From NCBI RefSeq assembly GCF_030814215.1, contig NZ_JAUSUT010000001.1, positions 1,488,001 to 1,552,000 of the forward strand: 64,000 nt of DNA, read 5' to 3'. Under the pieces are notes generated by a model, which searched no databases, had not been told where the DNA came from, and saw only the letters and a list, made by a program, of their open reading frames with translations. This document shows, piece by piece, positions 18,691 through 24,654 of this stretch. Positions within the stretch are counted from its first letter, which is position 1. Every line of letters starts with the position of its first letter. The translations under genes and the position numbers were made by a program. This stretch comes from Amycolatopsis thermophila (GTDB taxonomy: Bacteria > Actinomycetota > Actinomycetes > Mycobacteriales > Pseudonocardiaceae).

Positions 18691-20369
<1,679 letters not shown>

Positions 20370-20384: not shown

Positions 20385-20678
20385 TCAGTTGACGACAGCC
20401 AGCACGTCGCGGGCCGACAGGATCAGGTAGTCCTCGCCGTTGTACTTGACCTCGGTGCCGCCGTACTTCGAGTAGATGACGACGTCACCGACGTTGACGT
20501 CGACGGGGATGCGGTTCCCCTTGTCGTCGACGCGGCCCGGGCCCACGGCCAGAACCTTGCCCTCCTGGGGCTTTTCCTTCGCGGTGTCGGGGATGACGAG
20601 GCCGGACGCGGTCGTCTCCTCGGCCTCGCTCGTCTGGACAACGATCTTGTCCTCGAGCGGTTTGATGTTCACGCTCAC
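20385..20678 (-). CDS. groES: 10-kDa co-chaperonin GroES
   Basis: A 97-residue co-chaperonin that caps GroEL. It begins [15 protein letters not shown] and carries the mobile loop with [25 protein letters not shown] 20678 gives the family's usual length; an in-frame extension to 20693 is unlikely. It is the first gene of the groESL operon, about 107 bases downstream of a CIRCE element. Confidence 0.96.
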
Positions 20679-20784
20679 CGGGTTGACCTCCACGGGTCGT
20701 CGAAAGCGTTGGCAGGTACTTACTGGGTTTCGGCGCCTACCACCCCCGCCGTCGCGGGTGCCGGGGCGTGTGCGGTGCCTTCGA

Positions 20785-20811
20785 TTAGCACTCTAGCCAC
20801 GGGAGTGCTAG
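20785..20811. promoter_or_regulatory. CIRCE operator (HrcA site) of groESL
   Basis: TTAGCACTC, nine bases, then GAGTGCTAG. This matches the CIRCE consensus TTAGCACTC-N9-GAGTGCTAA except for the last base. It is the expected binding site for the HrcA heat-shock repressor upstream of groES. Confidence 0.93.
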
Positions 20812-21161
20812 CCGCGCAAGGAGGGTCCCCCGGTGCCGCGCGAACCGCACCACAACCCGCCTGACCGGGGACTTTGCCCCGCGACCAGCAGCGGTGCCCG
20901 CCACGCCAGGATTCGCGGCATTTCTGCACCGCGACGGCCACGACGACCGGCACGACGACCGCCCCGCGGAGGCAGGTGAGGCGGTTGGAGACGTTGCGGG
21001 CCGGGGCACCGGCCGAACACATCAGCGATGGCCGATCAGTTCACCGGAGCGCGGAGGTCGCACCTGGTCACGCAGCGATACCGCCATCTCACCCTTTGAG
21101 CGGTGTTGACCACCGGTCGCGCTCCCTACCTTGGGAAACGGCCCGGACACGACTGGAAGGA
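20812..21161. other. Intergenic region without a supported gene
   Basis: About 350 bases between the CIRCE element and the cysteine-rich ORF. Open frames on both strands lack ribosome sites and family features. A possible promoter for the small ORF is TTGACC (21106-21111) with TACCTT (21127-21132), at a short 15-base spacing. Confidence 0.4.
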
Positions 21162-21242
21162 ATGGTGTTTTCCATGGGTGGTTGCAGCTGTTGCAGCTCG
21201 TGCAGTGGCCCCGGTTGCGGTTGCTGCGGAGGCTGCAACTAG
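21162..21242 (+). CDS. 26-codon cysteine-rich peptide
   Basis: ATG 21162 to TAG 21240-21242 encodes 26 residues. From the internal ATG at 21174 the peptide is 22 residues with eight cysteines, separated almost only by Gly and Ser (begins MGGCSCCSSC, ends CGCCGGCN). A purine-rich GGAAGG lies at 21155-21160. This is too close for ATG 21162 but reasonable for GTG 21165, so the exact start is unsure. A strong terminator follows 15 bases after the stop, and a promoter-like pair lies upstream, so it looks like a self-contained small gene. It could be a metal-binding peptide or the precursor of a thiazole-type or lanthipeptide-like product. No modifying enzyme is adjacent. Confidence 0.55.
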   Translation: MVFSMGGCSCCSSCSGPGCGCCGGCN

Positions 21243-21257
21243 ATCCGGCCTCGACCT

Positions 21258-21299
21258 GAGCGGCCCCGGGACCCCAACGGCGCGGTCCCGGGGCCGCTC
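21258..21299. terminator. Strong bidirectional terminator
   Basis: A perfect 16-bp stem (21258-21273 with 21284-21299) and 10-base loop between the cysteine-rich ORF and the convergent oxidoreductase gene (stop at 21306). Confidence 0.8.
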
Positions 21300-21305
21300 G
21301 TTCGT

Positions 21306-22160
21306 CTACACGGTCAGCACGATCTTCCCGCGCACCCGGCCGCTCTCGCTCAGCTCGTGCGCCTTGGCCGCCTCCTCGAGCGGCAGGACCTGCGAGACGT
21401 GCACCCGCACGCCCGCCACGGCACGAACGAGTTCCGCCGCCGACGGCTGCACGAAGAACCGCCGGTACCGCGGATCTCCGGCGGCATCGTTGCCCTGGGC
21501 GTCGATCAGCACGCCGTCCGGCTTGAGCACCTCCAGCGACCGCGCTCCGTAGGCACCGCCGACCAGGTCGCACACGAGGTCCACATCGGACACGACGGCC
21601 GTGAAGTCCACCGCCGTGTGGTCGATGAGCTCGTCCGCGCCCAGGGACCGGAGGAACTCGTGGTTCGCCGCCCGGGCCGTGCCGATCACGTACGCGCCGC
21701 GTGCCCGCGCGATCTGCACGGCGACGTGCCCGACGCCGCCCGCCGCGGCGTGGATCAGCACCCGCTGCCCGGCGCGCAGGTCGGCCAGCGCCTGTGATGC
21801 GGTCAGCACCGCGGTGGGGAGGGCGGCGGCGTCCACGTGGTCCAGCGACGCCGGTTTCGGGGCGAGGGTGTCGCGCGGCACCGCCACGTACTCGGCGTAC
21901 GCGCCCCACCGCGACAGCACCAGCCCGAACACCTCCTCGCCGGTCTCCTCGACCACGCCGGAGAAATCCAGCCCGAGCCGGAACGGCGGCTCGAACCCGA
22001 GCCCGTCGACCAGCCCGCGGCGCAGCTTCCAGTCCGCCGGGTTCACCCCCACCGCGTGCACCCGCACCAGCACCTCACCCGGGCCGGGCACCGGCCGCGG
22101 GGCGGCGACGACTTCCAGGACCTCGGGCCCGCCCAGGGCCCGGACATCGACGGCTTTCAC
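21306..22160 (-). CDS. NADPH:quinone reductase-like zinc-independent MDR oxidoreductase
   Basis: A 284-residue medium-chain reductase of the quinone oxidoreductase group. It lacks the zinc-binding cysteines and has VLIHAAAGGVGHVAVQIARARGA as the NADPH-binding loop. It likely reduces quinones or enones with NADPH. GTG 22160 (VKAVDVRALGGPEVLEV) matches the usual start; the frame is open to 22205, but that would leave only 22 bases to the divergent HxlR gene. It is presumably controlled by that HxlR regulator. Confidence 0.9.
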   Translation of the reverse strand: MKAVDVRALGGPEVLEVVAAPRPVPGPGEVLVRVHAVGVNPADWKLRRGLVDGLGFEPPFRLGLDFSGVVEETGEEVFGLVLSRWGAYAEYVAVPRDTLAPKPASLDHVDAAALPTAVLTASQALADLRAGQRVLIHAAAGGVGHVAVQIARARGAYVIGTARAANHEFLRSLGADELIDHTAVDFTAVVSDVDLVCDLVGGAYGARSLEVLKPDGVLIDAQGNDAAGDPRYRRFFVQPSAAELVRAVAGVRVHVSQVLPLEEAAKAHELSESGRVRGKIVLTV

Positions 22161-22213
22161 ACCGGAGATCGTCACCTCGGGCGGTATCCGTTGTGAAGAA
22201 GGCACCTTCCTGA

Positions 22214-22234
22214 TATCCAGGTACCTCGTGGATA
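22214..22234. promoter_or_regulatory. Candidate HxlR operator
   Basis: TATCCA, nine bases, TGGATA: a small inverted repeat in the divergent region between the oxidoreductase and HxlR genes. A further GGTATCC at about 22172 may extend the site. Assigned by position and symmetry only. Confidence 0.45.
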
Positions 22235-22611
22235 CCGTCCAGTCCTACCTCCGCGCCTGCCCGGCCCGCACGGTTCTCGACGTGCTCGCCAACAAGTGGA
22301 CGCTGCTGGTGCTCAGCTCCCTGCGCGGCAGCGACGGGCCGGTGCGGTTCAACGAGCTGCGCCGCCGCCTGGAGGGCATCACGCAGAAGTCGCTCACCCA
22401 GACCCTGCGCGCCCTCGAGCGCGACGGCCTCGTCGCCCGCGCCGTCTACCCCACGGTGCCGCCCCGCGTCGAGTACTCCCTCACGAGCCTGGGCACACAG
22501 GTCGGCGACATGTTCACGGTGCTCGGCGAGTGGGCGGAGGAACACGTCGGCGAAATCCTCGCGGCCCGGGAGGCCTTCGACCGGCGGCCGGAACCCGAAC
22601 CGGTCCGCTGA
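22228..22611 (+). CDS. HxlR-family transcriptional regulator
   Basis: A 127-residue winged-helix protein beginning VDTVQSYLRACPARTVLDVLANKWTLLVL, with the HxlR signature NKWTLLVLSSLRGSDGPVRFNELRRRLEGITQKSLTQTLRALERDGLV. Members commonly sense electrophiles, aldehydes or quinones and control a divergent reductase, which fits the neighbouring quinone reductase. GTG 22228 is the first start that fits the family's length. Confidence 0.9.
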   Translation: MDTVQSYLRACPARTVLDVLANKWTLLVLSSLRGSDGPVRFNELRRRLEGITQKSLTQTLRALERDGLVARAVYPTVPPRVEYSLTSLGTQVGDMFTVLGEWAEEHVGEILAAREAFDRRPEPEPVR

Positions 22612-22707: not shown

Positions 22708-22736
22708 TTGACAGTGTGTAGTTTTCTCGCTGCATT
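22708..22736 (+). promoter_or_regulatory. Sigma-70-type promoter of the amidase gene
   Basis: TTGACA (22708-22713), 17 bases, TGCATT (22731-22736). The start of transcription would fall just before the GGGAGG ribosome site at 22743-22748. Confidence 0.6.
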
Positions 22737-22752
22737 CTCTGAGGGAGGCAGC

Positions 22753-24654
22753 ATGACGTCGTTCACCCGCCGCGGTGCCCTGCGCGCGCTGGCCGCCGGC
22801 ACGGCCGGGGCGGCTGTGGTCGCCGCTCCCGGCGCGTCGGCCGCCGCGGGTTCCGCGCGGCAACGGGCGTTCGCGGACGCGGCGGCGGAGTTCGGCGTTC
22901 CGGAGTCCGTGCTGCTCGGCGTGTCGTATCTGAAGTCCCGCTGGGACTCCCACGGTGGCGCGCCGAGCACCAGCGCCGGGTTCGGTCCGATGCACCTGAC
23001 GGACCTGCGGGCGGTCGCGGCCGGGGGCAGCCACCACGACAAGGGCGCCGAGGACCCGCGCGGCGACCTCGCCCGGGGGGTGCTCGCGCCACGGAGGTCG
23101 GCGGCGCTGCAGACGGTGGACCTCGCCGCGTCGCTGACCGGGGTGGACGCCGCCACGCTCCGCACCGACCCGGTGCAGAACATCCGCGGTGGCGCGGCGG
23201 TTCTGGCTCAGTACCAGCGCGAACTCGGCGTGCGCGCGGACGGGCCGGCCGGCTGGTACGGCGCGGTCGCCCGCTACAGCGGGGCGTCCGACACGGGCGC
23301 GGCGACGTTCTTCGCGGACGAGGTGTTCGCGACGATCGCCGCGGGCGCTCACCGCACGACCGACGACGGGCAGGCGGTGACCCTCCCGGCGATTCCGGTG
23401 TCGCCGCAACGCGAGCAGGTGCGGGCGCTCGGGCTGGCCGCGGTCGCCGAGGGTGCGGCGGAGGCCCCGCCCGGGCTGGCCGTCGAGTGGATCCCGGCGC
23501 CGTACCAGGACCTCGGCGACGGCAACTACGGCAACTACGACAAGGCCGAGCGGCCGCACTCGCAGAAGATCACCCACATCGTCATCCACGACACCGAGTG
23601 CACCTACGACGCGGCGATCGGCCTGGTGCAGGACCCGACGTACCTGGCGTGGCACTACACGCTGCGCTCCACGGACGGGCACGTCGCCCAGCACGTGCTG
23701 ACCAAGGACGTCGGCTGGCACGCCGGCAACTGGTACGTCAACGCGAAGTCGATCGGCGTGGAGCACGAGGGCTTCGCGGCCCAGGGCAGCTGGTACACGG
23801 AGGCGATGTACCGCGCGTCGGCGCAGCTGGTGAGGTTCCTGGCCGCGAAGTACCGGATCCCGCTCGACCGCGAGCACATCATCGGCCACGACAACGTGCC
23901 CGGCACGACGCCGGAGACGGTGGCGGGGATGCACTGGGACCCGGCGCCGTACTGGGACTGGGCGCACTACTTCGACCTGCTGGGCGCGCCGCTGAACGCG
24001 CGACCGGTGCGGCAGCCGACCGGGCTGGTGATGATCAAGCCGGATTTCGCGTCCAACCCGGCGGGGTACACGGGGTGCGATGCGTCGGCGCCCGGTGCCG
24101 CGTGCCCGGCGCGCGGTTCGTCGGCGGTGTTCTTGCGCACCGAGCCCCGGGACGACGCTCCCCTGCTGGCGGATGCCGGTCTGCACCCGGACGGCGGACC
24201 GTCGACGGCGGCGATTTCCGACGTCGGCAGCCGGGCGTCGACCGGGCAGCGGTACGCGGTGGCGGAGACGCGCGGCGAGTGGACCGCGGTGTGGTTCCTC
24301 GGGCAGAAGGGCTGGTTGCGCTCGTCGGGGGTGGTGCCGGTGCTCGGGCAGGTGGTGACGCCGCGGCCGGGGTTGTCGTCGATCCCGGTGTACGGGCGGG
24401 CGTATCCGGAGGCGGCGGCCTACCCGGAGGGGATCACGCCGCAGGAGATCGTGCCGTTGCCGTACACGCTGGCCGCGGGCCAGAAGTACGCGGCCGGCCC
24501 GACGCTGGAGAGCGAATACTTCTGGGCGACGACCTTCGACCCGGCGTCCCACGTGGTCGTCCGCGGCGCCACGAAGTACGTGCAGATCCAGTTCGGCCAT
24601 CGAGTGGCCTTCGTCCAGCTCGACGACGTGGTGGTGGCCCGCACGAGTCCCTGA
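22753..24654 (+). CDS. Secreted N-acetylmuramoyl-L-alanine amidase (Amidase_2/PGRP fold)
   Basis: A 633-residue exported wall hydrolase that would cut the lactoyl-Ala bond of peptidoglycan. It has a twin-arginine signal peptide (TRRGALRALAAGTAGAAVVAAPGASA). Residues 35-220 resemble a lytic-transglycosylase-like helical domain (GVPESVLLGVSYLKSRWDSHGG). The amidase domain (about 245-415) holds the zinc ligands in HIVIHDTE, GWHAGN and IIGHDNVPG. An SH3-like C-terminal part follows. GAGGGAGG lies just before the ATG. It acts outside the membrane in envelope turnover; Tat export implies it folds inside the cell. Confidence 0.92.
   Translation: MTSFTRRGALRALAAGTAGAAVVAAPGASAAAGSARQRAFADAAAEFGVPESVLLGVSYLKSRWDSHGGAPSTSAGFGPMHLTDLRAVAAGGSHHDKGAEDPRGDLARGVLAPRRSAALQTVDLAASLTGVDAATLRTDPVQNIRGGAAVLAQYQRELGVRADGPAGWYGAVARYSGASDTGAATFFADEVFATIAAGAHRTTDDGQAVTLPAIPVSPQREQVRALGLAAVAEGAAEAPPGLAVEWIPAPYQDLGDGNYGNYDKAERPHSQKITHIVIHDTECTYDAAIGLVQDPTYLAWHYTLRSTDGHVAQHVLTKDVGWHAGNWYVNAKSIGVEHEGFAAQGSWYTEAMYRASAQLVRFLAAKYRIPLDREHIIGHDNVPGTTPETVAGMHWDPAPYWDWAHYFDLLGAPLNARPVRQPTGLVMIKPDFASNPAGYTGCDASAPGAACPARGSSAVFLRTEPRDDAPLLADAGLHPDGGPSTAAISDVGSRASTGQRYAVAETRGEWTAVWFLGQKGWLRSSGVVPVLGQVVTPRPGLSSIPVYGRAYPEAAAYPEGITPQEIVPLPYTLAAGQKYAAGPTLESEYFWATTFDPASHVVVRGATKYVQIQFGHRVAFVQLDDVVVARTSP

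Follow-up and report, generated by a model that had tools for sequence, protein, structure and literature searches.

An autonomous mini-gene for an eight-cysteine peptide in Amycolatopsis thermophila and other Pseudonocardiaceae, with a candidate metallothionein-like role

The window analysed in this study, a stretch of 64,000 nucleotides from the genome of A. thermophila, contains a real, self-contained coding gene for a peptide of 22 amino acid residues, of which eight are cysteines. This mini-gene is under coding selection, its cysteine geometry and a promoter-like box upstream of it are conserved, and it is autonomous from its neighbors. We infer a metal- or thiol-related role as the leading reading, and the best reading is that of a minimal metallothionein-like peptide buffering a soft metal, to which we assign a probability of about 0.5.

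The mini-gene and its start codon

The gene and its ribosome-binding site are as follows.

21174..21242, plus strand: mini-gene encoding the 22-residue peptide MGGCSCCSSCSGPGCGCCGGCN plus the stop codon, with the pattern CxCCxxC-x4-CxCCxxC
21155..21161, plus strand: purine-rich ribosome-binding site GGAAGGA, seen in the sequence and similar in the same-genus copies

The original prediction placed a tiny eight-cysteine gene with a purine-rich ribosome site at 21162..21242. The ribosome site is present, and the frame and the eight cysteines in 22 residues stand. The predicted start does not, as the conserved start lies at 21174. The translation of the outer frame (21162-21242, plus strand) is MVFSMGGCSCCSSCSGPGCGCCGGCN. 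In the peptide that begins at the inner ATG (21174), a seven-residue unit is repeated in tandem so that two CxCCxxC motifs lie four residues apart, and there is no histidine. The inner ATG was retained in all 15 same-genus copies besides that of the window. The outer start was rejected, given that, of the same-genus copies, just two, the window's (L001) and L011, have an in-frame ATG adjoining the ribosome site. Thus, the start should be 21174.

The mini-gene was the only open reading frame (ORF) in the window with 15 to 40 codons and at least eight cysteines, and 40 first-order Markov resamples of the window yielded no such ORF. Judged from putative starts, the N-terminal stretch ahead of the cysteine core ranged from none to roughly 13 residues, and in the loci printed the peptide ended 0 to 1 residue past the last cysteine.

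Distribution and coding selection

The same-genus copies were identified by blastn with a query of 371 bases (20950-21320) against 61 genomes, the window's own and 60 relatives, with no demand on cysteines. Of 18 same-genus relatives, 15 had a copy, in each case with eight cysteines of identical spacing. A 24-row profile was used at E<=0.01 for the scans of the family and the phylum. Recurrence in Pseudonocardiaceae, a family that includes many antibiotic producers, had been proposed as a check, and the profile matched 158 of 297 genomes from 37 of 46 genera of this family. The presence is patchy, with 139 of the 297 genomes lacking a match at this cut-off. Of 396 genomes sampled across the phylum, the window's own was the only one matched (E<=0.01). 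A 15-row profile at the stricter E<=1e-5 was run over the order (397 genomes) and gave 10 matches; all belong to the family, nine of them to other genera than the window's. This cut-off was too strict because the window's own copy was missed. Moreover, when a named species collection was scanned from a seed of one short peptide pattern, 16 of the 303 seed matches were confirmed as loci, and all 16 were in records with the names Amycolatopsis, Lentzea, Longimycelium, Saccharopolyspora or Saccharomonospora. Some genomes have the mini-gene twice, at loci apart from each other, such as L091 and L126 in G027 and L119 and L120 in G425.

Among 296 genomes of the class searched with the widened profile A4, three besides the window's own gave matches, which were rejected as chance partial frames without the motif. 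Searches of plasmid and phage collections by tblastn gave no match for the short peptides or for the longer phage frame L169 described below, and the short cysteine-rich queries were probably masked as low complexity.

Three of the 18 same-genus genomes (G006, G014, and G015) had no profile match and neither such an ORF nor the box beside groES. In G006, a quinone-reductase-like stretch lies about 0.9 kb from groES (L167:9-442, 1367-2195) and neither the mini-gene nor the box was found between them. In G014, a different gene, which we take to be tsaD, is beside groES in place of the mini-gene, and the stretch beside groES in G015 showed nothing. Absence from a close relative with conserved flanks, which the original prediction had named as evidence against itself, thus occurs in one of the 18 genomes (G006), whereas 15 of the 18 carry the gene. 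Read against these 15, the absence in G006 is apparently a loss. Given its absence from 3 of the 18 genomes, the mini-gene is dispensable.

Selection was assessed with 62 loci, which comprised 60 distinct cores and were chosen by cysteine spacing, so that the invariance of the cysteines in this set is partly imposed; the 15 same-genus blastn copies are free of this choice. At codon positions 1, 2, and 3, pairs of the 62 loci differed on average by 0.21, 0.19, and 0.46 per site, respectively. Among the 60 distinct cores, mean pS was 0.68, mean pN was 0.19, and pN/pS was 0.27, with pN lower than pS in 1769 of 1770 pairs. The silent third-base changes and the conserved cysteine spacing that had been called for are therefore both seen. 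In addition, three glycines (before the first cysteine, in CxG, and in CGCC) were invariant as residues, and all four GGN codons were used for them.

The pattern of conservation also bears on whether the peptide is the precursor of a modified peptide (a thiazole, lanthionine or cofactor-like RiPP). Of these, the original prediction had mentioned the thiazole core, alongside a minimal metallothionein and a stand-alone metal or thiol role. The very high content of Cys, Ser, Thr, and Gly and the variable N-terminal stretch in many genera are consistent with such a precursor. As a rule, RiPPs possess a recognized leader and a more variable core. Judged from the sequences compared here, the cysteine core of the mini-gene product is fixed, whereas its N-terminus is variable or absent. 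No RiPP modifying enzyme was recognized among the gene clusters identified within 6 kb, most of the clusters being without a name, and the recurrent neighbors that were identified encode MsrB, a chlorite-dismutase-type protein, an alpha/beta hydrolase, an FMN reductase, and GroESL, none of which is a RiPP enzyme. Given the fixed core, the variable or absent N-terminus, and the lack of a recognized modifying enzyme nearby, a thiazole precursor is unlikely, and we consider the RiPP explanation as a whole very improbable. The metal or thiol role in the original prediction is the one retained as the leading reading.

Promoter-like box, hairpin and genomic neighborhood

The flanking signals and neighboring genes in the window are listed below.

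21089..21107, plus strand: promoter-like box TCACCC-N5-GCGGT-GTT, conserved, with the family consensus TCACTC-N5-GCGGTGTC
21127..21132, plus strand: -10-like hexamer TACCTT, from alignment A3, columns TAnnnT
21258..21299, no strand assigned: 16-bp perfect inverted repeat (arms 21258-21273 and 21284-21299) with a 10-nt loop, terminator-like by sequence and fold
18691-20307, minus strand: GroEL, recognized from the ORF list
20385-20693, minus strand: GroES (PF00166)
21306-22205, minus strand: zinc-type oxidoreductase (quinone reductase), from a Pfam scan
22228-22611, plus strand: HxlR (PF01638)

A possible promoter had been suggested, and the conserved box and the -10-like hexamer support it, although a simple sigma-70 scan found no consensus match upstream of the mini-gene. 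The gap between box and hexamer was 19 bases in the window and 19-20 bases in the aligned relatives. The hexamer is generally TAnnnT and mostly CACCAT in the Saccharopolyspora-like loci. The box was fitted by leaving out one genus at a time, with 34 genus labels, drawn from the search tables except for those of five named loci, which were assigned by hand. Whatever the neighbors, 59 of 62 held-out loci had a box scoring above shuffles at p<0.05, and 56 (full seed) or 53 (5-mer seed) of the 62 did so at p<0.01. The mean held-out score was 16.7 bits, compared with -1.9 bits for the shuffles and about -2 bits for downstream controls. The test failed in L085, L103, and L120, the last of which is one of the two copies in G425.

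With R1, a sequence-only model of the promoter, the mini-gene promoter ranked best in the window's own genome, at 28.8 bits with the next hit at 17.8 bits, the window itself having a row in the model. Overall, it came first in six of eight searched carrier genomes (25.7-33.4 bits); four of these six gave a row to R1 and the other two are close relatives. In G139 and G396, which are carriers outside the model, the mini-gene promoter was not top-ranked. In G111 and G106, for which no mini-gene match is listed, the best scores were 19.2 and 19.7 bits, respectively, which is the level of the second-best hits elsewhere. When the ORFs of 30 R1 hit loci were compared by blastp, only a response-regulator/kinase-like pair (L148 and L158) and an oxidoreductase similarity of 27-31% (L153) were found besides the mini-gene loci. 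No regulon for the box was seen with R1, by which a divergent regulon could be missed. At the sensitivity reached, the box thus seems to serve the mini-gene alone. We know of no metal-regulator operator that the box matches.

The inverted repeat sits between the mini-gene and the convergent quinone reductase gene. It had been predicted as a perfect 16-bp terminator, and the perfect 16-bp pairing is present, but the repeat has no U-tract and a terminator scan made no call. In 46 of the 62 loci, the 80 nt past the stop codon folded with z<-2 against mononucleotide shuffles, and 51 of 62 had an uninterrupted stem of at least 7 pairs (G-U allowed, no control).

The mini-gene lies between groESL and a quinone reductase/HxlR pair, as the original prediction stated. 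Neighbor clusters were named by a Pfam scan of one member each or from the window, and most are without a name. The most frequent neighbor, a convergent alpha/beta-hydrolase cluster, was found in 27 of the 62 loci and is absent from the window's own context. The msrB cluster was found in 19 loci, a chlorite-dismutase-type (HemQ-like) cluster in 10, groEL in nine, and groES in eight, the last two in the window's genus and one other. Other loci adjoin a LuxR-like regulator (identified by eye) and an FMN reductase, or lie elsewhere. An operon or partnership with groESL, the quinone reductase or HxlR is therefore rejected as a general explanation. The context shifts between genera while the gene and its box stay, and no meaning of the redox-type neighbors, which the original prediction had pointed out, is supported. 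The mini-gene is an autonomous gene, to which groESL and the quinone reductase/HxlR pair are incidental. Among the neighbor clusters identified at the 62 loci, most of which are without a name, no metal gene or metal regulator was recognized.

Two further elements were observed in this region of the window. Upstream of groES, an inverted repeat, TTAGCACTC-N9-GAGTGCTAG, is found at 20785-20811, which we take to be a CIRCE-type element. A long plus-strand ORF at 22708-24654, presumably encoding an N-acetylmuramoyl-L-alanine amidase, belongs to a cluster that is found close to the mini-gene in 8 of 62 loci, each time next to groEL.

The arrangement of the downstream genes is relevant to another explanation, in which the ORF is a cysteine-sensing leader peptide or part of a regulatory RNA. 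A study of mycobacteria describes cysteine-rich small ORFs upstream of cysA2 and other genes, for which attenuation was proposed (PMC4633059). Similar to these ORFs, the mini-gene is tiny, cysteine-rich, and actinobacterial, and a hairpin lies 3' of it. The mycobacterial ORFs precede a same-strand operon, whereas the mini-gene is stand-alone in most loci and usually has nothing to attenuate. The closest downstream gene predicted by a simple gene caller was convergent in 43 of 62 loci, and a same-strand gene started within 250 bases of the first cysteine codon in only 7 of 62. In the window, no same-strand cysteine-related operon follows directly; the next plus-strand gene is that of HxlR, about 1 kb away and past a convergent gene. 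Moreover, the fold predicted for the window transcript contains the hairpin of the ORF together with that of the terminator, and residues besides cysteine are also under selection. The chance that the mini-gene is such a leader is accordingly slight.

Known families, phage microdomains and possible function

At E<=1, the peptide matched no Pfam family, a search in which very short queries can be lost by filters, and it matched no family in NCBIfam. In the PDB, profile A2 found no chain at E<=10 and profile A4 found only netrin-G2 at E of about 1, which is not convincing. The literature search found no title or abstract opening that describes the peptide. The profile of the SmtA-type metallothioneins, PF02069, reached its cut-off in none of 100 genomes of the family, although the control was detected in Synechococcus elongatus, and the window's own genome had no match at E<=0.001. 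A different, longer cysteine-rich protein with sub-cut-off similarity to PF02069 was observed in two genomes, both from a single genus of the family (L198:1377-1635 and L199:1254-1635).

The peptide is small and very rich in cysteine, with eight cysteines in 22 residues and CxCCxxC twice, as expected for a metallothionein. A high density of CxC, CC, and CxxC is given as typical of metallothioneins in a publication that also describes MymT, the Cu(I) metallothionein of Mycobacterium tuberculosis, as a 4.9-kDa protein with a predicted capacity of up to six Cu(I), encoded by a small, originally unannotated cysteine-rich ORF (PMC7558416). Compared by description, MymT and the peptide are alike as products of small cysteine-rich actinobacterial ORFs, and MymT is about twice as large. 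SmtA/BmtA-type proteins are also bacterial, cysteine-rich, and metal-binding, but longer, and those of the SmtA type contain histidine, which the window's peptide lacks; for a Pseudomonas relative, Zn3Cys9His and Cd4Cys9His clusters are described (PMC7387436). The copper metallothionein of Neurospora crassa is given as 26 residues long and formerly counted as one of the shortest metallothioneins (PMC4755600). Similar to this fungal protein, the mini-gene product is gene-encoded, cysteine-dense, and about the same size; different from it, the bacterial peptide is shorter (22 residues) and its eight cysteines form a two-fold CxCCxxC repeat. The cysteine spacing of the N. crassa protein differs from this repeat. 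In the genus Amycolatopsis, copper resistance and metallothionein claims are known for A. tucumanensis.

A like microdomain occurs in uncultured phages. A profile scan of viral contigs identified five contigs, three of which were found again with a second profile, and single-stretch scans added L177 for L169, L179 for L172, and 16 relatives for L170. The eight-cysteine microdomains lie inside long frames at the following positions.

L168:1786-1854
L169:3878-3937
L170:5001-5057
L171:5001-5051
L172:1575-1625
L177:3085

The motif is GCGCCPDCTGPGCGCCWDC in the L169 frame, of which L177 is a variant 80% identical over the 66-residue query, and GCGCCAECSGPSCGCCPDC in the L170 frame. L168, L171, and L172 have versions with altered spacing in the first half. 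Because the second half of the motif served as the seed for the scans, the informative agreement is that of the first half. Four of the five first frames matched head-and-packaging PHROGs with head-maturation-protease or portal profiles, L168 and L170 clearly and L169 (E 0.0038) and L171 (E 0.0015) weakly; the L172 frame had no PHROG match. Among the 17 loci from the L170 stretch, many of which align solely outside the motif, the motif pattern was found in L170's own contig only. This pattern misses L171 and L172, and it was the only means by which L179 was inspected. The motif of L170 thus resembles a module that was inserted or is poorly kept, and the likeness between phage and mini-gene motifs may also have arisen by convergence.

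These phage frames lend some weight to a rather unlikely alternative, in which the peptide is a metal-folded micro-adaptor: structural Zn(II), one ion or two, or else an Fe-S cluster would hold a small fold that docks on a partner protein or serves as a regulator, with no buffering. Buffering makes little sense in proteins of the head-maturation-protease or portal type, and the constraint on non-cysteine positions, including the invariant glycines, exceeds what a pure chelator needs. Against an adaptor, no neighbor cluster recurs in more than 27 of the 62 loci, and the commonest, that of the convergent alpha/beta hydrolase, is absent beside the window's gene. Moreover, CC pairs favor polynuclear clusters over single ZnCys4 sites.

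For a metallothionein-like peptide, the mini-gene would be transcribed as a stand-alone gene from its own promoter and transcription would end at the hairpin. The product would be a peptide of about 21-35 residues, almost wholly tandem CxCCxxC. With its eight thiols in CxC, CC, and CxxC, its Gly/Ser spacers, and neither a hydrophobic core nor a leader, it would be disordered until it wraps a soft metal. No signal peptide is evident by eye, and the peptide is probably cytosolic. Its eight thiolates would enclose soft metal ions, with Cu(I) as the most likely candidate and Zn(II)/Cd(II) as the alternative, in a single small metal-thiolate cluster, by which the metal would be buffered or detoxified, as by a metallothionein. 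The strict conservation of the few non-cysteine positions and the reuse of a like motif by phages favor a defined microfold over a loose chelator. A bolder and more tentative proposal, which we regard as possible but somewhat doubtful, is that CxCCxxC-[ST]-G-P-x-CGCCxxC represents a metal-cluster microdomain of about 20 residues that folds by itself and has so far escaped description. It would be free-standing with a private promoter in Pseudonocardiaceae, perhaps as the smallest gene-encoded metallothionein-like protein of bacteria, and would have been inserted into head-assembly proteins by several phage lineages.

The peptide matches no Pfam or NCBIfam family and is found in roughly every second genome sampled from Pseudonocardiaceae (158 of 297). 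The promoter box, apparently private to the mini-gene, would provide a handle on its regulator. If metal is bound, the 21-22-residue product, with its perfect two-fold cysteine repeat, would represent a natural metal cluster of near-minimal size that is easy to synthesize and study.
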